Source of the DNA: Falsiroseomonas bella
Lineage (GTDB): Bacteria > Pseudomonadota > Alphaproteobacteria > Acetobacterales > Acetobacteraceae
Assembly (NCBI RefSeq): GCF_003173615.1
Contig: NZ_QGNA01000008.1
Coordinates: 1-64,000 of the forward strand
Length of the DNA stretch: 64,000 nt
Direction of reading: 5' to 3'
The notes beneath the pieces are model-generated. The model had not been told where the DNA came from. It saw only the letters and a list, made by a program, of their open reading frames with translations, and made no database searches. Both the position numbers and the translations under genes were made by a program. Positions 412-14,731 of this stretch are shown piece by piece (the first letter of the stretch is position 1; each line of letters begins with the position of its first letter).

Positions 412-449
412 TCGGCGGCGCCGGACACCCGGCGCGTCCGTGACTCCAG

Positions 450-482
450 CCCGGCCGTCCCAACCAGGGGCGGCCGGGTTTT
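450..482 (+). terminator. rho-independent terminator after the Hint gene
   Basis: The arms CCCGGCCG (450-457) and CGGCCGGG (471-478) pair perfectly around a 13-base loop and are followed directly by four T residues. It separates the Hint gene from the trigger-factor-like gene that starts at 514, so the two are probably separate transcripts. Confidence 0.75.
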
Positions 483-513: not shown

Positions 514-2340
514 ATGGCCCAGACCCGGCCCGAGCCCGACCCGATGACGCCGGCCCCGCCGCGCTTCCTTCCCCTCACCGCCGACCGGCTGCGCCGCCGG
601 TTCATCCTCGTCGTGTCGCGCGACGCGGTGATGGAACGGCGTGAGGCGCGGCTGCAGGAGATCGGCCTCACCGCCGTTGCGCGGGAGGCGGAACGCAGCC
701 GCCCCGCCTTGGCGCGCATCCTCGATTCGACCATGGCCGAATGCATCGAGCAGGCCGCGCGGGACGCGGTGGCGGCGATGCTGCGCGAGACCGGCCTGGC
801 CAGCATCGGGCCGGCGCGGATCGAGACGCTGTCCGCCCCGCCGGAACACGACCTGGTGCTGCGCGCCGAGATCGCGACGCTGCCCGAGATTTCGCCGCCC
901 GACCCGACGGGGCTCCGGCTCGAGCGGCTGGTCGCCGCGCCCTCGGCCGCCGAGGTCGAGGACGAGCTGCACGCGCTCGCCCGGCGGCGCGGCGCCTGGC
1001 AGCCTCTTCCGCCCGGCGCGGGCGCGGGCGCGGAGGACCGGCTGGTCTGCGACGTTGCCGCGACGCTGCTGCCCGCGCGCAACGCCATCCCGCAGCCGGG
1101 CATCCTGGGCGCGCGCCCCGGCGCGCCGGGACGGCTGCCGGACGAATGGACCTTCGGCGACAACGGCGCCGGCCTCGTCACGGAGGTGCTGGCGATCGAG
1201 CCGGCCGCCAACCCGCCGCATATCCGGCTGCGCGTGCAGGGCACGACGACGCAGGAGGGGCAGAGCTACGTGATCTTCCACCTGCCCGGCGCCATCCCCG
1301 CGCGGCCGGAGAGCAGCTGGGTGGGATCGGTGGCGCTGCGCCCGGTCGGTGCGCCGCGCGGGCTGCGCGGCAGCAAGCTGCGCCTGGAAAGCCAGGATTC
1401 CTCGGCAGAGGGACGGCTGCGGCGCAAGGACGCGGCGCTGCTGGCCGCGGGCGATGGCGGGTTCACGCGCTGCTACGTCTCCGAGACCTTCGCCGATGCG
1501 GAGACGGCCTTCCTGCGGATGCCGTTGCTGTTCGACCACGCCGCGGGAACGGTGGATTTCTGCTGCGACATCGGCGCACCGCGGCTGGTGGAAGGGCTCG
1601 ACCTCGGCGAGCAGGGGCCGCTGCCGCTCCCTGCCCTCTCGGGCCAGGCGCAGCTGCTGGGCGCCGGCGCGGCCGACCCGGCGGGGCTTTCGGCGCATCT
1701 GCAGGGCATGAAGGCGGGCGAGACGCGCGAGGTGACGCTGCGCCTGCCGGGCGGCATGGCGGACCGCGCACTGACCGGGCGGGAGGCGCGCTTCGTGGTG
1801 CGCGCACGCGCGGTGCTGCGCCGCGTGCTGCCGCCGCTCGACGACGCGTTGGCGCAGGCGAGCGGCTTCGCGGGGCTGGCGGCGCTGCGCGGCGGCATCG
1901 AGGCCAGGCTGGCCGACCGCGCGACGCAGCTGCAGCGGCGGCAACTGCGCCAGGCGGCGCTGCACGCGCTGCTGGCGGAGGCGGGCGAAATTCCGCTGCC
2001 CGAGGAAGCGGTGGCGGCCGAGACCGCGGCGATCTGGGCGGGCTTCGCCGCCGCCGCCGCGGCGCGCGGCGAGGCGCCGGACCGCGTGGCGGCGATGGCG
2101 CTTGCCGCGCAGCGGCTGCGCATCGGGCTGCTGGTCGCGGCGCTGGCCAGGCGGCACGGGCTGGCGCCGGATGCCGTCGCGCTGCGGGCCGCGGCGACGG
2201 CGCTCGGCCCCGGCGCCGCGGAGGCGGCGGTGCAGGCACGTGCGCTGGAGGACACGGTGGTCGCCTTCCTGCTCTCCCGCGCGCAGGTCACGGACCGGCC
2301 GGCCAGCCTCGCGGAGCTCATGGCAGCCGCGGAAGGATAG
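514..2340 (+). CDS. trigger-factor-like chaperone with an inserted CBM/tail-fibre-like domain
   Basis: The protein has 608 residues; E. coli trigger factor has 432. Residues about 22-188 follow the trigger factor N-terminal domain and the start of the PPIase domain (RAEIATLPEISPPDPTGLRLERL then EVEDELHALARRRGAW). Residues about 388-435 resume the PPIase domain (GMKAGETREVTLRLPGG). The C-terminal helical domain follows and ends with a trigger-factor-like tail (VTDRPASLAELM). Between them, residues about 189-363 (bases 1078-1602) resemble the beta-sandwich modules of tail-fibre or carbohydrate-binding proteins: NAIPQPGILGARPG, a Trp-containing strand, then GTTTQEGQSY. The GFRxGK ribosome-docking motif expected near residue 50-60 is absent, so ribosome binding is doubtful. 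A second ATG at 544 is an alternative start. It is probably a specialised paralogue rather than the housekeeping tig. Confidence 0.75.
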   Translation: MAQTRPEPDPMTPAPPRFLPLTADRLRRRFILVVSRDAVMERREARLQEIGLTAVAREAERSRPALARILDSTMAECIEQAARDAVAAMLRETGLASIGPARIETLSAPPEHDLVLRAEIATLPEISPPDPTGLRLERLVAAPSAAEVEDELHALARRRGAWQPLPPGAGAGAEDRLVCDVAATLLPARNAIPQPGILGARPGAPGRLPDEWTFGDNGAGLVTEVLAIEPAANPPHIRLRVQGTTTQEGQSYVIFHLPGAIPARPESSWVGSVALRPVGAPRGLRGSKLRLESQDSSAEGRLRRKDAALLAAGDGGFTRCYVSETFADAETAFLRMPLLFDHAAGTVDFCCDIGAPRLVEGLDLGEQGPLPLPALSGQAQLLGAGAADPAGLSAHLQGMKAGETREVTLRLPGGMADRALTGREARFVVRARAVLRRVLPPLDDALAQASGFAGLAALRGGIEARLADRATQLQRRQLRQAALHALLAEAGEIPLPEEAVAAETAAIWAGFAAAAAARGEAPDRVAAMALAAQRLRIGLLVAALARRHGLAPDAVALRAAATALGPGAAEAAVQARALEDTVVAFLLSRAQVTDRPASLAELMAAAEG

Positions 2341-2419
2341 CGGCCGCCCTCGCGTTGACGCTGCGGAACGCCAAGCCTAGCGTCCCCGCATCCCGCAGGA
2401 GCGAGGGGAAGGAAACGCG

Positions 2420-3175
2420 ATGGCGAATGGCGTGAAGGCGGCCTGGGCTGCAGGCAAGCCGGTGGTGAACGGATGGCTCGCCATCCCCTCGGGCTTCAGC
2501 GCGGAGGTCATGGCGCAGGCCGGCTTCGACAGCCTGACGGTGGACATCCAGCACGGCGTGCAGGACTACCTCTCCATGGTCGCCTGCTTCCAGGGCATGC
2601 AGCCGCATGGCGTCACGCCGCTGGTGCGCGTGCCGTGGAACGAGCCCGGCATCATCGGCAAGGTGCTGGACGGCGGCGCGAAGGGCGTGATCTGCCCGAT
2701 GGTCAACACCGAGAAGGAAGCCCGCGACCTGGTGTCCTTCTGCCGCTATCCGCCGAAGGGCGCGCGCAGCTTCGGCCCGATCCGGTCCGGCATCTACGGC
2801 GCGGCGGCCGACACCGACGCGGCCAATGACGACGTGCTGGTGATCCCGATGATCGAGACGAAGACCGCGCTCGACAACCTGGAGGCCATCGTCAGCGTGC
2901 CGGGCGTGGACGCGGTGTATATCGGTCCGTCGGACCTCTCGCTGTCGCTCGGCATGAAGCCGCTGCAGGACCGGCGGGAGCCGGAGTTCCTGAAGGTCAT
3001 CGACCACATCCGCACGACGGCGGCGAAGCACGGCGTGAAGACGGGCATCCACACCATGTCGGGCCAGTACTCGAAGGAGATGTTCGAGCGCGGCTTCAAC
3101 CTGGCGACGATCATGAACGACAGCGGGCTGATGCTGACGGCCGCGAAGGCGCAGGTGGGCGTCGCGCGCGGGTGA
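2420..3175 (+). CDS. HpcH/HpaI aldolase family protein
   Basis: This 251-residue protein belongs to the class II (metal-dependent) HpcH/HpaI aldolase family, which cleaves 4-hydroxy-2-oxo acids to pyruvate or a related keto acid plus an aldehyde. Visible landmarks are the DIQHG segment near residue 42 (the family has D-x-x-H/E-G here), RVPWNEPG near 73-80, the KGVICPMVNTEKEA segment and YIGPSDLSLSLG near residue 170. Metal-ligand Glu and Asp positions appear conserved. The length is normal (about 250-267). A strong GAGGGGAAGG purine tract lies upstream of ATG 2420. It is a single gene flanked by the trigger-factor-like gene and a convergent TerB-like gene, so its substrate cannot be inferred from context. 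Confidence 0.88.
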   Translation: MANGVKAAWAAGKPVVNGWLAIPSGFSAEVMAQAGFDSLTVDIQHGVQDYLSMVACFQGMQPHGVTPLVRVPWNEPGIIGKVLDGGAKGVICPMVNTEKEARDLVSFCRYPPKGARSFGPIRSGIYGAAADTDAANDDVLVIPMIETKTALDNLEAIVSVPGVDAVYIGPSDLSLSLGMKPLQDRREPEFLKVIDHIRTTAAKHGVKTGIHTMSGQYSKEMFERGFNLATIMNDSGLMLTAAKAQVGVARG

Positions 3176-5542: not shown

Positions 5543-7365
5543 GGCGGGGTTCCGATCGTGATGACGTGCGGCGGCGGCGCGCTGGAGAAAAGCTCGTCCA
5601 CCAGCGCGGCGCGGCGCGCGAGCACGGCGCGCTGGTTGACGCTGCCCTTGTCGGTGATCTCGCCGGCATCGAGGGTGAGCGGCGAGGTAAGCAACGTGGC
5701 GCGCGCGACATGCTGGCTGCTGCCGGTGGCGGTCTTCGCGAGTGCCGCGAGCTTCGCCGCGAGTTCGGCGCGGAGCGCGGGATGCGTCGCGGCATCCTCG
5801 CCCTGCGGCACGATGCGCGCGACAGCCTCGGGTTCCGGCAGCAGGATGGCGGCGAGTTCGTCGCGGTCCGGTGCGGCGATCACCACGTCCTTCACATAGG
5901 GCGCGAGCGCCGCGACGAGCTTCGCGCGCAGCGGGCCGACACTCACCCAGGTGCCGGTGGAGAGCTTGAAGTCCTCCGTGATGCGGCCGTCGAACCGGAA
6001 GCCCTTGTGCAGGTCGGCGGGATCGAGCGGCACCAGCGCATCGCCGAAGCGATAGAAGCCTTCCTCGTCGAAGGCGGCGCGCGTGGCCTCCGGGTTTCGC
6101 CAGTAGCCGGGCGTGATGGAGGGTCCGCGCACCCGCGCCTCCATCTTGTCGCCGACCGGGGCGAGCTTCATCTCGATCCCCGGCACGGGCAGGCCGACCG
6201 CGCCGGATTCGGAAAAATCCTCGCGCACCACCAGGCAGAAGGGCGCGGTCTCGGTCGCGCCGAGCCCGGTGATCATCGGGATCTTTTGACCGCGTTCGGC
6301 CAGCGCCATGCGGTCCAGCTCGTCCCAGATGTGCTGCGGCAGGCCGGCGGCCGAGTAGAACATCATCCGCACACGAGAGAAGAAGATGCGGCGCAGCGCT
6401 GCGTCCTGCTTCAGGTGGTGCACCACCTCCTCGAAGCCGCGGGGCACGTTGAAGTAGATGCTGGTCGCGATCTCGCGCAGGTTGCGCAGCGACTCGGAAA
6501 AGCCGCCGGGCACCGGGCGGCCTTCGTCCATGTAGAGCGTCCCGCCGTTGTAGAGCGCGATGCCGGTGTTGTGGTTGCCGCCGAAGGTGTGGTGCCAGGG
6601 CAGCCAGTCCAGCAGCACCGGCGGGTCTTCCGCCATGAAGGGGAAGGCCTCGCGGATCATCTGCTGGTTGGAGCAGAGCATGCGCTGCGTGTTGATCACG
6701 CCCTTGGGCTGGCCGGTGGAGCCCGAGGTGAACAGGATCTTTGCGCATGCATCCGGGGCCACGGCTTCCGCCGCGCGATCCACCGCCGGCGTCGGTTCTG
6801 TCGCGAGCAGCGCGCCGAAGCCCTGCGCGTCCAGCACCTCCGTTCCCGCCGGCACCGCCGCCGCGATCGCCTTGGCGAAGCGCACGCCGTCATTGGCGAA
6901 GACGAGGCCGGGCGTCAGCAGCGCGATGCAGTGGCGCAGCTTCGCGTAGTCCGTGGCGAGCAGCGAATAGGACGGCGAGACGGGCGCGACCGGCACGCCC
7001 ACATGCAGCGCCGCCAGCGTCAGCACGAACTGATCGAGGCAGTTGCCCGAGAGGATTACCAGCGGCCGTTCCGCCGACAGCCCGCGATCCAGCAGCGCCT
7101 GCCCCACGGCGCGCACTTTCGCCAGCATCTCCCCGTACGACATGCATCGCCAGTCGCCGCCCAGCGCGGGATCGCGCTTCGCGATCAGCGTGCGCTCCGG
7201 CGCGACCGCGGCCCAATGCTCAAGCCGTTCCGTCAGCCGGCGCGGATAGGCGCCGAGCGTGCCTTCCGGCGTGACCAGCAGCGCGCCATCCGCGCGCCGC
7301 GCGAAGCGCACAGGGCCCGGCCCGAGCGGCTTGCGGGCAGCGTCTGCCTCGATCGGCGCGGACAT
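5539..7365 (-). CDS. fcs: feruloyl-CoA synthetase-like AMP-dependent ligase
   Basis: This 608-residue adenylate-forming enzyme matches the length and sequence character of feruloyl-CoA synthases. The P-loop-like AMP motif is LFTSGSTGQPKGVI (about residue 215), followed by LDWLPWHHTFGGNHN, a stretch typical of Fcs and not of generic fatty acyl-CoA ligases. GLGATETAP is the A5 motif. The start is ATG 7365, with GGAGGG seven bases upstream; the open frame continues to 7674 but overlaps the divergent marR gene. It activates a carboxylic acid, probably a hydroxycinnamate, to its CoA thioester in the cytoplasm. It is the first gene of a three-gene operon and faces marR across a 90-base gap that holds a palindromic operator. 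Confidence 0.87.
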   Translation of the reverse strand: MSAPIEADAARKPLGPGPVRFARRADGALLVTPEGTLGAYPRRLTERLEHWAAVAPERTLIAKRDPALGGDWRCMSYGEMLAKVRAVGQALLDRGLSAERPLVILSGNCLDQFVLTLAALHVGVPVAPVSPSYSLLATDYAKLRHCIALLTPGLVFANDGVRFAKAIAAAVPAGTEVLDAQGFGALLATEPTPAVDRAAEAVAPDACAKILFTSGSTGQPKGVINTQRMLCSNQQMIREAFPFMAEDPPVLLDWLPWHHTFGGNHNTGIALYNGGTLYMDEGRPVPGGFSESLRNLREIATSIYFNVPRGFEEVVHHLKQDAALRRIFFSRVRMMFYSAAGLPQHIWDELDRMALAERGQKIPMITGLGATETAPFCLVVREDFSESGAVGLPVPGIEMKLAPVGDKMEARVRGPSITPGYWRNPEATRAAFDEEGFYRFGDALVPLDPADLHKGFRFDGRITEDFKLSTGTWVSVGPLRAKLVAALAPYVKDVVIAAPDRDELAAILLPEPEAVARIVPQGEDAATHPALRAELAAKLAALAKTATGSSQHVARATLLTSPLTLDAGEITDKGSVNQRAVLARRAALVDELFSSAPPPHVITIGTPP

Positions 7366-7387
7366 CGCCGTCCCTCCGGTGGATTTG

Positions 7388-7400
7388 TTATGCGGCATAA
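7388..7400. promoter_or_regulatory. palindromic operator, probably for the adjacent MarR regulator
   Basis: TTATGCGGCATAA is a perfect inverted repeat (TTATGC, one spacer base, GCATAA) in the 90-base gap between the divergent fcs and marR starts. It is followed by TAATCC and sits in an AT-rich island within very GC-rich DNA. MarR dimers typically bind short palindromes of this kind in their own divergent promoter region. It lies 22 bases upstream of the fcs ATG and 55 bases upstream of the marR ATG, so it could control both directions. The assignment is inference. Confidence 0.6.
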
Positions 7401-7455
7401 TAATCCGGCGCCGCCCCCCTTCCAAGAGCCGGCGCCGCTTCGCATACTGACACGG

Positions 7456-7938
7456 ATGTCCACGCTCCGTCGCCGCGCCGAGACACTGCCGCCCGCCGCC
7501 GCCGTCGCCGTCACGCCGGTGCCGCCGCCGCTGAATGATCGCCTGGGCTTCTGGCTGCGCCTGGCGCAGCAATCGGCCTTCGACGCCTTCCACCGTGCCA
7601 TGGCGCCGCTCGGCCTCACGCCGGGCCGGCTCGGCGCGCTGCTGCTGCTGGAAGCGCATCCCGCGATGCGGCAAGCCGCGCTGGCGGAGGCGCTGCGCGT
7701 GAAGCCGCCGAACCTGGCGGTGCTGCTGGCGGGGCTGGAGGCCGAGGGGCTGATCCGCCGCGTTGAGGATTCCCGGAACCGCCGCGCGAACCTGCTGCGC
7801 CTGACGCCGACGGGCCGCGCGCTGCTGAAGCGCGCCAAGGCGCAGGAGGCGCTGGTGGAAGAGGCCCTTTGCGACGGCATGGACGCGCAGGAACGCGCCG
7901 CGCTGCTCGGCGCGCTGCGCCGGATCGCCGGCGGATGA
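7456..7938 (+). CDS. MarR-family transcriptional regulator
   Basis: The 160-residue protein carries the winged-helix MarR fold. Helices around LTPGRLGALLLLEAHPAMRQ lead into the recognition region KPPNLAVLLAGLEAEGLIRR (about residues 83-102) and the wing EDSRNRRANLLRLTPTGRALL. The start ATG 7456 was chosen because the open frame upstream is only the antisense of fcs. The stop overlaps the enoyl-CoA hydratase start (ATGA). By analogy with FerR/CouR-type MarR repressors of hydroxycinnamate genes, an aryl-CoA thioester could be the inducer. That analogy rests on gene neighbourhood, not on a ligand motif. Confidence 0.88.
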   Translation: MSTLRRRAETLPPAAAVAVTPVPPPLNDRLGFWLRLAQQSAFDAFHRAMAPLGLTPGRLGALLLLEAHPAMRQAALAEALRVKPPNLAVLLAGLEAEGLIRRVEDSRNRRANLLRLTPTGRALLKRAKAQEALVEEALCDGMDAQERAALLGALRRIAGG

Positions 7939-8711
7939 GCGAGCCCCTCGTCACCGTCGCGCGTGAAGGCGCGGTCGCGACCATCGCGCTGAACCGGCCG
8001 GCGAAGCGCAACGCGATCAGCGACGCGCTGCTCGCCGCGTTGGAGGATGCCGTGGTGCAGGCGCAACGCGAGGCGCGCGCCATCGTCATCCACGGCAACG
8101 GGCCGTGCTTCTCGGCCGGTCTCGACCTATCGGAGCACAAGGCGCGCAGCGCGGAGGAGGTGTTCCGGCACTCGCGCGGCTGGCATCGCGTGTTCCGCAG
8201 GATCCGCGAGGGCGACGTGCCGGCGATCGCGGCGATCCACGGCGCCTGTGTCGGCGGCGGGCTGGAACTCGCCGCCGCCTGCCACATCCGCGTGGCGGAT
8301 TCGACGGCCTTCTTCGCATTGCCGGAGGGAACCAGGGGCATCTTCGTCGGCGGCGGGGCGAGCGTGCATGTCGCGCGGCTGCTCGGCGCGGCGCGGATGA
8401 CGGACATGATGCTGACCGGCCGCGCGCTGGATGCCGCCGCGGCGGAGCGCGCGGGCCTCGTCACCTATGTCGAGCCGGAAGGCGGCGCGGTGGCGAAGGC
8501 ACGCGAGCTCGCCGCGAAGGTTGCGCAGGCGGCGCCGCTGACCGTGCTCGGCGTGCTGCAGGCGCTGCCGCGCATCCAGGACATGGCGGAAGCCGACGGG
8601 CTGTTCGTGGAAAGCCTGGTCGCCGCCCTGGCGCAGACCGGGCCGGAGGCGCAGGCGCGGCTCGCGGCCTTCCTCGAGAAGCGCGCGCCCAAGGCGGGAG
8701 AGGACCGATGA
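7935..8711 (+). CDS. enoyl-CoA hydratase/isomerase (crotonase) family protein
   Basis: This crotonase-fold protein has 258 residues. The first oxyanion-hole segment is [12 protein letters not shown] (about residue 60), and the second is [20 protein letters not shown] (about 98-117), with the first catalytic Glu in GLELA. The second catalytic Glu is in [18 protein letters not shown] 7935 overlaps the marR stop, and the stop overlaps the next SDR start (ATGA in both cases), so the three genes are translationally coupled. It would hydrate an enoyl-CoA, here probably the CoA ester made by the divergent Fcs. Whether it also cleaves the product to an aldehyde, as Ech of the non-beta-oxidative route does, cannot be told from sequence alone. 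Confidence 0.87.
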
Positions 8712-9469
8712 AGAGCTTGCAGGGCGCATCCGCCGTCGTCTCCGGCGGCGGATCGGGGCTCGGCGCGGCGACGGCGGAGGCGCTGGCCGCGGCGGGCGCG
8801 AAGGTCGTAGTGCTCGACATCGATGCGGCGAAGGCGCAGGCCGTCGCCGCGCGCATCGCCGGCGTCGCGGCCGTGGGCGACGTGGCGGAGGAAGCGCCGG
8901 TCGCGGCGGCGGTGGAGCAGGCTGCGTCGCTGGCGCCGCTGCGCATCGCCGTCTCCTGCGCGGGCATCGCGCCGGCGGCGCGCGTCGCCGGGCGCAACGG
9001 GCCGCATGACCTCGATCTCTTCACGCGCGTGATCCGGGTGAACCTGATCGGCACCTTCAACCTGCTGCGCCTGGCGGCGGCGAGGATGACGGCGAACGAT
9101 CCGCTGGAGGATGGCGAGCGCGGGCTGGTGGTGAACACCGCCTCCATCGCCGCCTATGAGGGCCAGATCGGGCAGGCGGCCTATTCGGCCTCCAAGGGCG
9201 GCGTCGTCGGGCTGACGCTGCCGGCGGCGCGGGAGCTTGCGCGCTTCGGCGTGCGCGTCGTCACCATCGCGCCCGGCCTGATCCACACGCCGCTGATGGA
9301 CGGGCTGACGCCGGAGGCGCGCGAAAGCCTGGGCAAGCAGCCGCTGTTCCCGCAGCGGCTCGGCCGCCCCGACGAGTTCGCGGCGATGGTGCTGGCGGTT
9401 GCGCAGAACCCGCTGCTCAACGGCGAGACCATCCGGCTGGACGGCGCGCTGCGGCTGCCGCCGGCCTGA
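8708..9469 (+). CDS. SDR, 3-hydroxyacyl-CoA dehydrogenase (HSD10)-like
   Basis: A 253-residue classical short-chain dehydrogenase. The NAD-binding glycine motif [10 protein letters not shown] is at residues 12-21, SCAG is near residue 80, and catalytic Ser and YSASK are near 140-158. An Asp at the end of the second beta strand (VVLDID) favours NAD over NADP. The layout with long insert [22 protein letters not shown] resembles type II 3-hydroxyacyl-CoA dehydrogenases (HSD17B10 group). It starts at ATG 8708 overlapping the hydratase stop. In this operon it would oxidise the 3-hydroxyacyl-CoA to the 3-oxoacyl-CoA that the divergent thiolase cleaves. Confidence 0.85.
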
Positions 9470-9486
9470 CGGTCAGGCTGCCTGAC

Positions 9487-9504
9487 GGGCCGCTTGCGCG
9501 GCCC
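9487..9504 (+). terminator. hairpin after the SDR gene
   Basis: GGGCCGC (9487-9493) pairs with GCGGCCC (9498-9504) round a TTGC loop, 18 bases after the SDR stop and 53 bases before dctP. A smaller hairpin GTCAGG/CCTGAC precedes it. There is no T run, so it may attenuate rather than stop read-through into the TRAP genes. Confidence 0.4.
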
Positions 9505-9556
9505 CGCTCCCCTTGCGACAAAAGAACTTCCGACACGAACGGGAGAGGCAGGCACA

Positions 9557-10648
9557 ATGAACCGCCGTGGATTGATCAGCGGGGCCGCCGCGGGCGGCAT
9601 CGCCACCGCAACGCTGGCCACGCCGGCGCTGTCCCAGGGCCGCATCGAGTGGCGCATGGTCACGCTGTGGCCGCGCAACCTCCCCGGGCCGGGCGTCGCG
9701 GCGCAGAAGGTCGCGGACCGCATCGGCGCCGTCACCGCGGGCCGCATCAATGTCCGCCTCTTCGCCGCCGGCGAGGTGGTGCCCGCGCCCGGCGCCTTCG
9801 ACGCGGTGGCGGCCGGCACGGCCGATCTCTATCACGGCGTTCCCGCCTTCTGGATCGCGAAGTCGCCGGCCATCGGTTTCTTCGGCAGCTTCCCCTACGG
9901 CATGACCGTGTATGAGCGGCAGGCCTGGATGATGCATGGCGGCGGCCAGGCGCTGTACGACGAGGTCTATGGCCGCTTCGGCGTGAAGCCCTTCAACACC
10001 GGCGACAGCGGCCCGCAATGGTTCGGCTGGTTCCGGCGCGAGATCCGCTCCATCGAGGATTTCCGCGGCCTGCGCTTCCGCACTGCCGGCCTCGGCGGCG
10101 AGATGTTTCGGCGCGCCGGCGCATCGGTCGTCACGCTGCCGGCGGGGCAGATCTTCGCCGCACTGCAGTCCGGCACGATCGACGCGGCGGAGTTCCTCGG
10201 ACCGTTCAGCGATGCGCCGCTCGGCCTGCACCAGGTGACGAAGAACTACTACTGGCCCGGCGTGCAGGAGCCGTCCTCCGCCGAGGAGATCGGCATCAAC
10301 ATGGGGCGCTGGAACGCTCTGCCGGACGACCTGAAGGCCGCGGTGCGCTTCGCCTGCCAGTCGGTCGCGGAGGAGATCACCACCGAATACGACGCGAACC
10401 ACCCGCGCGCGCTGGCCGAGCTCGTCTCCCGCCACGGCGTCACGCCGCGCGAGGTGCCGCGCGACGTGCTGATCGCGCTCGGCAATTCGGCGGGCGAGAT
10501 CCTGGCGGAGTATCGCGGATCGAGCGACGCGATGGTGAAGCGCGTCGCCGACAGCTACGCCGAATTCCGCAACCGCAGCCAGGGCTACATGATGATGTCC
10601 TACGGCGCCAACTTCCAGGCGCGCGCCCTGCCCATTCGCTGGGGTTGA
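9557..10648 (+). CDS. TRAP transporter solute-binding protein (DctP family)
   Basis: The 363-residue protein has an N-terminal Tat-like signal (MNRRGLISGAAAGG to ALSQG, about 28 residues) and the DctP/TAXI fold landmarks: VAAQKVADRIGAVTAGRINVRLF, the ligand-contacting Arg segment FRGLRFRTAGLGGEMFRRAG (about 175-195) and LPAGQIFAALQSGTIDAAEF. It is the periplasmic receptor for a carboxylate-type ligand. The subgroup with a TVYERQAWMMHGGG segment resembles binding proteins for 2-oxo or aromatic acids, but the ligand is unknown. An SD-like GGGAGAGG precedes ATG 9557. It is followed by DctQ- and DctM-type genes. Placement 87 bases after the beta-oxidation genes suggests uptake of the substrate used by that pathway. 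Confidence 0.9.
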   Translation: MNRRGLISGAAAGGIATATLATPALSQGRIEWRMVTLWPRNLPGPGVAAQKVADRIGAVTAGRINVRLFAAGEVVPAPGAFDAVAAGTADLYHGVPAFWIAKSPAIGFFGSFPYGMTVYERQAWMMHGGGQALYDEVYGRFGVKPFNTGDSGPQWFGWFRREIRSIEDFRGLRFRTAGLGGEMFRRAGASVVTLPAGQIFAALQSGTIDAAEFLGPFSDAPLGLHQVTKNYYWPGVQEPSSAEEIGINMGRWNALPDDLKAAVRFACQSVAEEITTEYDANHPRALAELVSRHGVTPREVPRDVLIALGNSAGEILAEYRGSSDAMVKRVADSYAEFRNRSQGYMMMSYGANFQARALPIRWG

Positions 10649-10717
10649 GCGCTGCACCTTCTGCTGAAGATCGCCGACGCCCATGACGCCGCGAGCCGCT
10701 GGCTCGCACGCGGCGTC

Positions 10718-11200
10718 ATGTGGCTCGCGCTGGCGGTGGTACTGGCGCAGTTCGTGGTGGTGGTGCTGCGCTATGCCTTCGCCTCCTCCTTCGTGTGGAT
10801 GCAGGAGAGCGTGATCTACCTGCACGCCACGCTCTTCATGCTGGCGATCGGCTACACCTACCTTGTGGACCAGCATGTGCGGGTGGACGTGCTCTATGCC
10901 GGCTGGTCCATGCGGAAGAAGGCGGCGGTGGACCTCGTCTCCATCGTTGTCGCCGTGTTGCCCTTCTGCGCCCTGGTCGTCTGGGGCTCCTGGGGCTACG
11001 CGGCCGCATCCTGGCGGCAGGACGAGGGGCCGATGGCCTATGGCGGTGTGCCGCTGGTGCCGGCGCTGAAGTCGCTGATCCCGCTCATGGCGATCCTGCT
11101 GGCGGCGCAGGCCGTGTCCATCGCGATACGCTGCATCGCGGTGCTGACCGGCGCGGCCAGCACCCACTTTCCCTACCGCGCGCATCAGGGCAGCGCATGA
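10718..11200 (+). CDS. TRAP transporter small permease (DctQ family)
   Basis: From ATG 10718 the protein has 160 residues with four predicted membrane helices, typical of DctQ (FVVVVLRYAFASSFVWMQES in the first half). Homology-like sequence continues upstream in frame: from CTG 10652 the reading LHLLLKIADAHDAASRWLAR looks like the normal DctQ N-terminus, and the frame is open back to the dctP stop at 10648. The only start codons by standard rules are at 10718 or later, so the true start may be a CTG at 10652, three bases past dctP with GGGG upstream. The stop overlaps dctM (ATGA). DctQ forms the transport complex with DctM in the inner membrane. Confidence 0.85.
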   Translation: MWLALAVVLAQFVVVVLRYAFASSFVWMQESVIYLHATLFMLAIGYTYLVDQHVRVDVLYAGWSMRKKAAVDLVSIVVAVLPFCALVVWGSWGYAAASWRQDEGPMAYGGVPLVPALKSLIPLMAILLAAQAVSIAIRCIAVLTGAASTHFPYRAHQGSA

Positions 11201-12765
11201 GCACCTTTGCTATCGGGCAGGTGCTCGACCTGCTCATGTTCGCGTCGCTCTGCGCGCTGATCCTCACCGGCGTCCCCGTCACCTTCATCCTGACCGGCTG
11301 CGCCATCGTCTTCGGCGGGCTCGGCATCCTGTTCGGCGTCTTCGACAGCTTCCTGCTGGCGGCCCTCGCCCAGCGCATCTTCGGCACGATGACGACCGAG
11401 ACGCTGGTGGCGATTCCGCTGTTCGTCTTCATGGGCATCATGCTCGAACGCTCCCGCATCGCGGAGGAGCTGCTGGAGGCGATGGGGCGGCTGTTCGGCA
11501 CGGTGCGCGGGGGCCTGGCGATCAGCGTCTCCGTCGTCGGCGCGCTGCTGGCGGCCTCCACCGGCATCGTCGGCGCGACGGTCGTCACGATGGGGCTGAT
11601 GGCGCTGCCCGCGATGCTGCGCCGCGGCTACGACAAGCGCTTCGCCTGCGGCACCATCTGCGCCGCCGGCACGCTCGGCCAGATCATCCCGCCCTCCACC
11701 GTCATGGTGATCCTGGGCGAGGTGATCGCGGCGGCCTACCAGCAGGCGCAGCTCGCGCAGGGAAAATTCTCTGTGGAGACGGTCTCGGTCGGGCAGCTGT
11801 TTGCCGGCTCGATGATCCCGGGGCTGATGCTGGTGGGGTTCTACATCCTGTATCAGCTCGTCATCGCCTTCCTCCGGCCGGAGCTGGCGCCGGCGATCCC
11901 GAAGGCGGAGGCCGGCCGCGTCACGACGCGGGAGCTGCTGAACGCGCTGCTGCCGCCGATGGTGCTGATCGTGGCGGTGCTCGGCTCCATCCTCGGCGGT
12001 GTCGCGACGCCGACCGAGGCCGCGGCGGTGGGCGCCATCGGCGCCACCATGCTCGCCGGCCTGCGCCAGCAGGGGCGGCCCTGGCCGATCCATCTCGGCG
12101 CGCTCTGCGCGGTGGGCGTCGTGCTGCTGGGCGTGTTCTTCGATCTCCGCCTCGGCCGGGCGGAGCCGCCGCTGGCGGACCAGGTGGCACTCGGCGTCGC
12201 GGCGGTGCTGTGCCTGGGCCTCGGCTTCGGCGTGGTCGTTGCGCTCTGGCGCTGCTACGGCGCGGGCGTGCTCTCCGCCGTGTCGCACACCACCATGACC
12301 ATCACGGCGATGATCTTCGGCACGCTGATCGCCGCGACGCTGTTCAGCCTGGTGTTCCGCGGCCTGGGCGGCGAGGAGACGGTGAAGGAGCTGCTCTCCG
12401 CCATCCCCGGCGGGCAATGGGGCGCGCTGCTGGCCGTGATGGCGGTGATGTTCGTGATGGGGTTCTTCCTCGACTTCGTGGAAATCACGATCATCGTCGT
12501 GCCGATCGTCGGTCCGGTGCTCCTGGCCATGGGGATCGACCCGATCTGGCTGGCGGTGCTGATAGCGCTCAACCTGCAGACCAGCTTCCTGACGCCGCCC
12601 TTCGGCTTCTCGCTGTTCTATCTCGGCGGCGTCGCGGGGAAATGGGTGGGCACAGGCGACATCTATCGCGGCGTGGTGCCCTTCGTGCTGCTGCAGCTGC
12701 TGGCGGTCGGAATGGTGATGGCCTTCCCCGCCCTGGCGACCTGGCTGCCGGGCGTGCTGTTCTGA
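11197..12765 (+). CDS. TRAP transporter large permease (DctM family), long form
   Basis: The 522-residue membrane protein is longer than typical DctM (about 430). Family landmarks include GVPVTFILTG near the start, IPLFVFMGIMLERS (about 73-86), STGIVGATVVTMG, AAGTLGQIIPPSTVMVI (about 156-172) and GGVATPTEAAAVG (about 267-279). The C-terminal half has GFFLDFVEITIIVVPI and NLQTSFLTPPFGFSLFYL. The extra length is a segment at about residues 291-355 with two additional hydrophobic stretches, placed between the two halves. ATG 11197 overlaps the dctQ stop. DctM is the ion-coupled channel subunit. It ends six bases before the convergent DUF1232 gene. Confidence 0.92.
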   Translation: MSTFAIGQVLDLLMFASLCALILTGVPVTFILTGCAIVFGGLGILFGVFDSFLLAALAQRIFGTMTTETLVAIPLFVFMGIMLERSRIAEELLEAMGRLFGTVRGGLAISVSVVGALLAASTGIVGATVVTMGLMALPAMLRRGYDKRFACGTICAAGTLGQIIPPSTVMVILGEVIAAAYQQAQLAQGKFSVETVSVGQLFAGSMIPGLMLVGFYILYQLVIAFLRPELAPAIPKAEAGRVTTRELLNALLPPMVLIVAVLGSILGGVATPTEAAAVGAIGATMLAGLRQQGRPWPIHLGALCAVGVVLLGVFFDLRLGRAEPPLADQVALGVAAVLCLGLGFGVVVALWRCYGAGVLSAVSHTTMTITAMIFGTLIAATLFSLVFRGLGGEETVKELLSAIPGGQWGALLAVMAVMFVMGFFLDFVEITIIVVPIVGPVLLAMGIDPIWLAVLIALNLQTSFLTPPFGFSLFYLGGVAGKWVGTGDIYRGVVPFVLLQLLAVGMVMAFPALATWLPGVLF

Positions 12766-12771
12766 TCGTCC

Positions 12772-13152
12772 CTACCAGCCGGAAGCGGGCCACAACCACC
12801 ACAGCAGCAGCACGGCCGCCGCGAGCCACAGCGCCACGATCGCCGCGGCGCCGGCCAGGCTGCGCGGGCGGCGCTCCGCGGCGTCCGCCGCCGCGCGGCA
12901 TTCGGCCAGCACATCGGGCGGGATCAGCCGTGTCACCGCCAGGATGCCGAGCGGCACGATCAGCAGGTCGTCCAGGTAGCCGAGCACCGGGATGAAGTCC
13001 GGGATCAGGTCGATCGGCGAGAGCGCATAGGCCGCGACGGCGAGCGCCAGGGCCTTCGCGTGCCAGGGCGTCCGGGGATGGCGCGCGGCGAGCCAGACGG
13101 CGTGCACGTCCCGCTTCACCCCGCGCGCCCAGCTCCTCGCCCGTTGCAGCAT
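12772..13152 (-). CDS. DUF1232 (YkvA-like) membrane-associated protein
   Basis: A 126-residue protein with the DUF1232 core AYALSPIDLIPDFIPVLGYL (about residues 41-60) followed by DDLLIVPLGI, then a C-terminal hydrophobic helix ending in Trp-rich WLWPASGW. The family is widespread and has no established function; the core forms a hydrophobic hairpin. I chose ATG 13152; an in-frame TTG at 13170 would add six residues and cannot be excluded. It is divergent from the BMP-type ABC operon (49-base gap) and convergent with dctM. Confidence 0.82.
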   Translation of the reverse strand: MLQRARSWARGVKRDVHAVWLAARHPRTPWHAKALALAVAAYALSPIDLIPDFIPVLGYLDDLLIVPLGILAVTRLIPPDVLAECRAAADAAERRPRSLAGAAAIVALWLAAAVLLLWWLWPASGW

Positions 13153-13201
13153 CGCCTTCGCGCTTCCCAAGCAGGCGGCGCACGGTTAAGCAGACGCGCC
13201 G

Positions 13202-14731
13202 ATGCCTGCCTCCCCGCCACTGGTCCAAGCCCAGCAGATCGTCAAGCGCTTCGGCGCGCTGGCGGCGAACGACCATGTGGACCTGACCGTCGCCGCGGGC
13301 GAGATCCACGCGCTGCTCGGCGAGAACGGCGCGGGCAAGTCCACGCTGGTGAAGATGCTCTACGGGCTGCTGCAGCCGGATGCCGGACGCATCCTGTGGC
13401 AGGGCGCGCCGGTGGTGCTGCATGGCCCGCGGGAGGCGCGGCGCCTCGGCATCGGCATGGTGTTCCAGCACTTCTCCCTGTTCGAGGCGATGACGGTGGC
13501 GGAGAACGTGGCGCTGGCCCTGGATGGCGATGCGCCGCTGCCGCAGGTGGCCGAGCGCCTGGCAGAGACCAGCCGCGCCTATGGCCTGCCGCTCGATCCG
13601 CGGCGGGAGGTCTGGCAGCTCTCGGTGGGCGAGCGGCAGCGCGTGGAGATCGTGCGCTGCCTGATGCAGGACCCGCGCCTGCTGATCCTGGACGAGCCGA
13701 CCTCCGTGCTGACGCCGCAGGAGGCCGAGGGGCTGTTCGCCACGCTCGCCAAGATCCGCGCCGAGGGCCGCGCGGTGCTCTACATCTCCCACAAGCTCGA
13801 GGAGGTGCGTCGCATCTGCGAGGCGGCGACCATCCTCCGCCACGGCAAGGTCGTGGCGCGCTGCGATCCGCGCGCGGAAAGTGCGGCGAGCCTCGCGCGC
13901 ATGATGGTGGGCAGCACGGTGCTCGGCGTGAAGCACGAGCCGACGGCCCCGCGCGGGAAGGTGCGGCTGGCGGTGGCGGGCCTGTCGCTGCCGCCCGCCG
14001 AGGCGCATGGCGTGGCGCTGCGCGATGTCTCGCTCGCGCTGCATGGCGGCGAGGTGCTGGGCATCGCGGGCGTCGCGGGCAACGGGCAGGACGAGCTCTT
14101 CGCCGCGCTGTCGGGCGAGCGTCTGGCGCCGCGCGCGGAGGCGGTGCTGCTGGATGGGCGGCCGGTGGGACGGCAGGGCATCAATGCGCGGCGGCGGCTC
14201 GGCGCGGCCTTCGTGCCGGAGGAGAGGCTCGGCCATGCCGCCGCGCCACGCTTCCCGCTGAGCGAGAATGCGCTGCTCTCGGGCCATGCGGCGGGGGAGT
14301 TCCTGGCGGGTGGGCTGGTGCGGCGCGGGCGGCTGCTCGGCTATGTGGACGAGGTGACGCGCGTCTTCGACCTGCGCAAGGGCAGCCGCGACCCGGAGGC
14401 GCGCGCGCTGTCCGGCGGCAACCTGCAGAAATTCACGGTGGGGCGGGAGATCCTGCGCAACCCCGACGTGCTGGTGGTGGCGCAGCCGACCTGGGGCGTG
14501 GATGCCGGCGCGGCGCGGCGCATCCGCCAGGCGCTGCTGGACCTGGCGGCGGAAGGCGCCGCCGTGCTGGCGATCAGCCAGGACCTGGATGAGCTGCTGG
14601 AGATCGCGGACCGCATCGCGGTGATGTTCCATGGCCGCCTTTCCGCGCCGCTGCCGGTGCAGGGGCTGACGCAGGAATCGCTCGGGCTGCTGATGGGCGG
14701 ATCGGGCTTCCCGGCGGAGGACGCCGCATGA
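13202..14731 (+). CDS. ABC transporter ATP-binding protein, BMP/nucleoside importer type (two nucleotide-binding domains)
   Basis: This is a 509-residue duplicated ATPase. In the first half, Walker A is GENGAGKST (about residues 39-47), the ABC signature is degenerate (LSVGERQRVEI) and Walker B is LLILDEPTS. The second half has a degenerate Walker A (GVAGNGQDE), a normal signature LSGGNLQKF and Walker B-like VLVVAQPTWGVD, where the usual Asp-Glu is replaced. This asymmetric layout is typical of the RbsA/YufO/NupA class that energises BMP-type nucleoside importers. The stop overlaps the permease start (ATGA). It lies first in a four-gene operon with two permeases and a BMP-family receptor. Confidence 0.93.
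   Translation: MPASPPLVQAQQIVKRFGALAANDHVDLTVAAGEIHALLGENGAGKSTLVKMLYGLLQPDAGRILWQGAPVVLHGPREARRLGIGMVFQHFSLFEAMTVAENVALALDGDAPLPQVAERLAETSRAYGLPLDPRREVWQLSVGERQRVEIVRCLMQDPRLLILDEPTSVLTPQEAEGLFATLAKIRAEGRAVLYISHKLEEVRRICEAATILRHGKVVARCDPRAESAASLARMMVGSTVLGVKHEPTAPRGKVRLAVAGLSLPPAEAHGVALRDVSLALHGGEVLGIAGVAGNGQDELFAALSGERLAPRAEAVLLDGRPVGRQGINARRRLGAAFVPEERLGHAAAPRFPLSENALLSGHAAGEFLAGGLVRRGRLLGYVDEVTRVFDLRKGSRDPEARALSGGNLQKFTVGREILRNPDVLVVAQPTWGVDAGAARRIRQALLDLAAEGAAVLAISQDLDELLEIADRIAVMFHGRLSAPLPVQGLTQESLGLLMGGSGFPAEDAA

Follow-up and report, generated by a model that had tools for sequence, protein, structure and literature searches.

A trigger factor paralog with an inserted jelly-roll domain in Falsiroseomonas bella, and insert-bearing trigger factors in its family

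A trigger factor-like gene and its inserted domain

The DNA analyzed here comprised 64,000 nucleotides of Falsiroseomonas bella (assembly GCF_003173615.1, contig NZ_QGNA01000008.1, positions 1 to 64,000 of the forward strand); this whole stretch is referred to as the window and its genome as G000. An open reading frame (ORF) of 608 residues at 514–2340 on the + strand was found to encode a trigger factor (TF)-like paralog that carries an insert. The first part of the gene (514–1062, + strand) contains the TF N-terminal domain and the first strands of the FKBP-type peptidyl-prolyl isomerase (PPIase) domain, and lacks the GFRxGxxP ribosome motif. It is followed by an inserted domain of approximately 190 residues (1063–1632, + strand; residues ~184–373), a jelly-roll of the CBM4 (carbohydrate-binding module)/phage-tail type, and then by the remaining FKBP domain, in which the FIPGF signature is lost, together with the helical TF C-terminal domain (1633–2337, + strand). 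The original prediction had correctly placed an insert in this gene, but the limits it gave (residues 189–363) were too narrow.

Homology to TF, which had been claimed for both flanks of the insert, was confirmed by matches to Pfam Trigger_N at residues 72–154 (E 9e-6) and Trigger_C at residues 455–558 (E 4e-5), and by a match to the TIGR00115 tig profile (E 1e-35) with a score of 123.3 bits, under the equivalog cut-off of 180.2. The profile matches and the predicted structure together gave the three-domain TF fold. The full-length model had a mean predicted local distance difference test score (pLDDT) of 66.8 and a predicted template modeling score of 0.50, with the insert part below a pLDDT of 50; its alignment held 9 TFs only, and one FKBP strand was apparently misplaced. 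The ribosome-docking motif was indeed missing from the window protein, as had been noticed earlier, and so was the FIPGF-like PPIase signature, a motif taken from the TF alignment. A separate housekeeping tig, which the original prediction had proposed to look for, was found in the same genome at G000:C10:215421-216758; it is ordinary and insert-free. Judged by its sequence, the window gene is a TF variant that is filed outside the tig equivalog. The window protein had no match when compared against plasmids.

When the insert was modeled alone, an all-beta domain with a jelly-roll fold was predicted. This fold and the sequence relatives of the insert outside TF, which are tail-type proteins, bear out the earlier description of the block as a beta-sandwich resembling CBM or tail modules. 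In the window protein the insert gave no Pfam match, and the best Pfam match among the scanned tail-type relatives was CBM_4_9 with an E value of 0.021, below the cut-off. A sequence search found no solved structure for the insert (best E 0.76), and none of the 50 matches listed in the fold comparison was named SlyD or SlpA. The label "tail-type" rests on PHROG and Pfam scans of 7 of 54 rows, the other 47 being this domain without TF domains; a tail-family match was obtained for four of the scanned loci (L048, L109, L103 and L114), a baseplate family for L112, a family of unknown function for L061 and no match for L130.

Spread and exchange of the insert in the housekeeping gene

The domain was held by at least 77 of the 397 genomes sampled from the family of the window; the search scored at most 8 candidates per genome, so that its counts are lower bounds. 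The 99 loci fetched yielded 36 ORFs with TF and insert and 56 with the domain but no TF, 54 of which were used in the tree. Three fetched loci (L168, L169 and L172) had no ORF passing the profile, and six domain matches were not fetched (G251:C28, G251:C128, G089:C97, G020:C188, G183:C79 and G133:C239). With the window gene and L171 from G249, which the profile missed and which was counted as insert-bearing on a 161-residue gap and a match with an E value of 3e-9, there were 38 TF genes with the insert in 34 of the 397 genomes. All 38 had an intact reading frame and the same insertion site, and the gap between the TF halves was 157–202 residues compared to 8–21 residues in 50 insert-free TFs. 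An artifact of contig or assembly was ruled out by this shared site, and chance does not account for an architecture found in 38 genes whose gaps coincide in position. A class-level search found the insert in 3 of 385 genomes, including that of the window, G498 (a 402-residue frame) and G436 (E 8e-4, two internal stops). At the order level 62 of 299 genomes matched, all of the window's family, in a sample whose content of other families was not shown.

In 27 genomes the insert sits in a conserved TF of the housekeeping type, and all 27 of these proteins kept both the GFRxGKxP motif and the FIPGF-like signature. Two of them scored 375 and 394 bits against TIGR00115 (cut-off 180), and four of the genes (L038, L039, L042 and L046) adjoin clpP-clpX-lon, as recognized by eye. 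In 22 of the 27 genomes the TF search gave two matches, one being expected for each half of a single gene; G028, G104, G115, G172 and G353 had four each. Therefore the insert-bearing gene seems, from these sequence matches, to be the only TF in most of the 27 genomes, and the insert seems compatible with housekeeping work. All sampled members of four genera carried the insert (12/12 in g102, 3/3 in g64, 3/3 in g29 and 1/1 in g6), compared to 3/14 in g4, 3/13 in g17, 1/8 in g37 and 1/6 in g16. Two TF matches without the insert were observed in the small genomes of genus g41 (G040, G122, G185, G285 and G307), which may reflect either an additional TF paralog or matches that were split.

The tree of the TF flanks follows the genera, and the state of the insert changes nine times on it, at least six of these changes being forced by the starred branches. 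A single vertical origin without loss or exchange was rejected: when housekeeping TFs with the insert were forced into a single clade of the flank tree, the p value was 5e-95 in the approximately unbiased test, which assumes a group named before the tree is seen and was run on a quick tree. Close relatives differed in the presence of the insert. The flanks of G376 (with insert) and G398 (without) were 95.4% and 94.4% identical in DNA, and the same was found for G249 compared to G321 (95.3% and 93.3%) and for G326 compared to G255 (94.0% and 90.3%). Other inserts appeared to have been replaced. Between G216 and G174 the flanks were 96–97% identical (synonymous divergence, dS, 0.13–0.25) and the inserts only 38% identical (dS 0.67), and in genus g4 the inserts were 35–59% identical (dS 0.44–0.89) compared to 89–94% for the flanks (dS 0.21–0.28). 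In g102, the dS of the insert was within approximately twofold of that of the flanks, and the insert protein changed faster in several pairs. The insert was more variable than the flanks in the g17 and g64 housekeeping pairs by permutation, a comparison applied to seven hand-chosen pairs in all.

In the insert tree, a single branch (99/94; 98% of 200 bootstraps) separated the TF inserts from the 54 tail-type domains. The tree is unrooted and would fit a transfer from phage to TF or the reverse. In a quick version, which omitted two L163 pieces, the paralog insert L044 (G028) stood beside tail-type rows with weak support (83). A recent phage origin of the insert in each gene was unsupported, the TF inserts occupying one side of the tree. 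Because TF inserts and tail-type domains fall on two sides of one branch, the sequences favor a single capture, with later spread, loss and replacement, over many captures from phages. Recombination between tig genes would be the likely vehicle of the exchange.

The extreme divergence of the insert among near-identical TFs, its presence or absence among them and its tail-type relatives outside TF would also suit a domain that faces phages, either as a tail-like decoy or as a module that engages tail proteins while virions are assembled. Had such a decoy been copied from present-day phages, the TF inserts would be expected to interleave with tail-type domains, which they do not, and PADLOC gave zero matches among 9 proteins (the window paralog and genes near paralogs); a role of this kind is considered very unlikely. 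No TF with the insert was found in viral contigs (ORFs of 77 loci scanned). Tail-type copies of the domain also occurred in at least 9 of the 34 genomes with TF and insert. One such genome, G095, which has an insert-bearing TF paralog, contains a tail-type gene cluster at 5914–14641 of locus L061 (G095:C30). In the middle of a 321-kb IMG/VR contig, locus L313 holds a TF-like ORF of 417 residues with a GFRPGKA motif (locus bases 1896–3149), perhaps a phage-encoded TF.

Diverged paralogs and a proposed client-recognition module

Eleven of the insert-bearing genes are diverged paralogs (G000, G095, G153, G156, G127, G104, G353, G172, G028, G366 and G319). The PPIase signature was absent from all eleven, and the ribosome motif from seven of the ten with a complete N-terminal part, the eleventh being cut by a contig end. 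In three of the five paralog pairs compared by permutation, conservation of the insert significantly exceeded that of the flanks. The sequences can be read as indicating that the function of the paralogs moved to the insert.

We therefore propose, with about even confidence, that the paralog is a duplicated and neofunctionalized TF that acts as an off-ribosome holdase, with the CBM-like domain as its client-recognition module. The TF cradle, made of the N-terminal domain, the FKBP frame and the helical arms, would be retained as the holdase scaffold, and ribosome docking and prolyl isomerase activity would have been given up. The jelly-roll on the FKBP hairpin would be the main recognition module, and selected proteins, presumably exported or surface ones, would be held in the cytosol prior to export or assembly. 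A single capture would have brought the insert into a TF of the family, either derived from a CBM-type module of phage tails or acquired along with one. At the same hairpin of the housekeeping tig it would afterwards have spread, been lost or been exchanged. As a mechanism, a holdase derived from TF that recognizes clients through a jelly-roll head appears the most economical.

Several observations weigh against this proposal. Three paralogs (G104, G353 and G172) retained the GFRPGxxP motif. Differences between the window gene and its G153 counterpart amounted to 47% in the insert and 49% in the flanks (p 0.42), and between G104 and G353 the insert was not better conserved (p 0.27). The ratio of nonsynonymous to synonymous divergence (dN/dS) in the lineage of the window was fairly high, 0.26–0.49 and 0.61–0.76 compared to G156 and G153, respectively, so slow decay stays possible. 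The neighborhoods of the paralogs vary by lineage, and those in G172 and G028 show no surface theme by eye.

A further reading takes the insert as a tolerated passenger of the FKBP hairpin with no selected role, and the paralogs as decaying duplicates. Near relatives such as G398 manage without it, and among 13 housekeeping pairs of g102, g29 and g64, part of 22 pairs chosen by hand, the dN/dS of the insert was 0.36–0.79 and above that of the flanks in six. In one genome of the window's genus (contig G152:C455, locus L062), moreover, the paralog is represented in the neighborhood of the aldolase gene described below by just a C-terminal piece at a contig end, which either decay or a contig cut could explain; a search of that genome gave no match to the insert. 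In the other seven housekeeping pairs, in contrast, the dN/dS of the insert was 0.04–0.27, every sampled member of these three genera carries it, and the frame is open in all 38 genes, which makes a mere passenger improbable.

It is also possible, though rather doubtful, that the housekeeping TF of the family carries an exchangeable recognition cassette. At a single hairpin, tail-type jelly-rolls would enter, leave and give way to others, and chaperones that are otherwise almost the same would thereby select different clients or encounter different phages; the window paralog would be a cassette carrier freed from the ribosome. A housekeeping chaperone that gains, loses and exchanges a binding-type domain of 160–200 residues would, if true, be a natural experiment on the function of TF's PPIase head and on the ways in which chaperones become specific for their clients. 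The pair G376 and G398 makes this question directly testable.

The insert-bearing TFs share the three-part fold and the domain order of Tig (TIGR00115; Pfam Trigger_N and Trigger_C). They differ from it by the jelly-roll of 157–202 residues in the FKBP hairpin, and the window copy also by the loss of the ribosome motif and the PPIase signature. According to PMC11559001, TF is single-copy in 97.4% of TF-bearing genomes, and additional copies have mostly given up ribosome docking and subfunctionalized. The extra TF homologs of Myxococcus and others likewise are second copies without the ribosome motif beside a complete copy; they are mostly shorter through loss of the N-terminal domain, whereas the window paralog keeps this domain and is longer because of the insert. 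The word "insertion" is absent from the main text of that article. Chaperone domains inserted into FKBP raise its folding activity, and SlyD and SlpA, with an insert in the flap, and FKBP12 chimeras resemble the TFs described here in having a domain within FKBP, which in those proteins is a chaperone domain that adds substrate binding (PMC11013033). The fold of the TF insert is apparently a different one, and its carrier here is a whole TF. The SlyD insert presumably also occupies a different FKBP loop than the TF insert. CBM4/CBM16-type modules of phage tails, tailspikes and baseplates, such as Azospirillum phage Cd gp49 and the Klebsiella K2-2 tailspike, are similar in fold and are sequence relatives. 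The tail-type domain of G127 was 43% identical to gp49, which is recorded as a tail protein in one entry and as hypothetical in another. Unlike these modules, the TF domain sits in a cytosolic chaperone and on its own tree branch. The literature searched, mostly by the beginnings of abstracts, described no TF that bears an insert of CBM or tail type. New here are TF genes with the insert at one site, both housekeeping and paralog, and relatives in which it is present, lacking or replaced.

Neighboring genes and the RTX-Hint protein

Upstream of the TF-like gene, the window begins with the C-terminal part of an RTX and Hint_2 gene cut by the contig start (1–411, + strand; Pfam Hint_2, E 7e-13 on 58–411). 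Downstream lies an HpcH/HpaI aldolase gene (2420–3175, + strand; Pfam E 6e-33) with DNA matches to L059, L060, L036 and L062. The aldolase follows the paralog in four genomes of the window's genus (G000, G156, G153 and G095).

The original prediction had named the Hint gene as a candidate client and expected a conserved pairing. The paralog might accordingly be a dedicated chaperone that prevents the neighboring RTX protein from folding in the cytosol before it is secreted. An RTX and Hint_2 gene does lie directly upstream of the paralog in G000 and in G156, which has two tandem copies, and in G366, of another genus, the sole Hint_2 gene detected has the same position. A hand estimate (twice the number of Hint genes at a density near one gene per kb, summed for six lineages outside the genus) puts the probability that one or more such adjacencies arise by chance at ~0.01. 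However, no Hint_2 gene adjoined the paralog in G095, G127, G104, G353, G172, G028 or G319, seven of the ten with a readable upstream side (in G153 the contig begins inside the paralog gene), so that the expected pairing held at three of ten. The closest Hint_2 gene in these seven was at ~20 kb (G319), at ~25 kb (G172) or else on another contig or more than 200 kb away. The Hint of G366 is also closest to those of G319 and not to those of the window's genus.

Between the Hint and TF-like genes of the window, a terminator-like hairpin was found at 448–482 (+ strand), with a 14-pair stem running into a T run (−32.9 kcal/mol for 431–486). A like hairpin with a T run separates the two genes in G156. 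A stricter scan, asking for 5 T in 8, found no terminator in 350–620 of the window. With a hairpin and T run in this intergenic position, the Hint and TF-like genes may well be transcribed separately in the window and in G156. A chaperone dedicated to the RTX-Hint protein is judged unlikely.

Genes with a possible link to the surface or to export occur near other paralogs. In G104, the TF ORF is preceded by a sulfotransferase ORF that stops 4 bases before it, and the counterpart in G353 is arranged likewise. Glycosyltransferases and a weak sulfotransferase match, below the cut-off, were found near the G127 paralog, and sugar transferases adjoin that of G319. Together these neighbors suggest, but do not prove, a theme of surface or export functions.

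The full-length relatives of the window Hint gene in G156 consist of RTX repeats and Hint_2. The likely N-terminal part of the window gene is at the end of contig C9 (locus L318); RTX-Hint sequence occupies bases 1–411 of the window and 1–1109 and 2527–3450 of L318, and one copy in this genome is apparently divided between the ends of two contigs, C9 and C13. In G156, the RTX-Hint gene (L059, 4244–7174) is tandemly duplicated, and the Hint parts are 99% identical.
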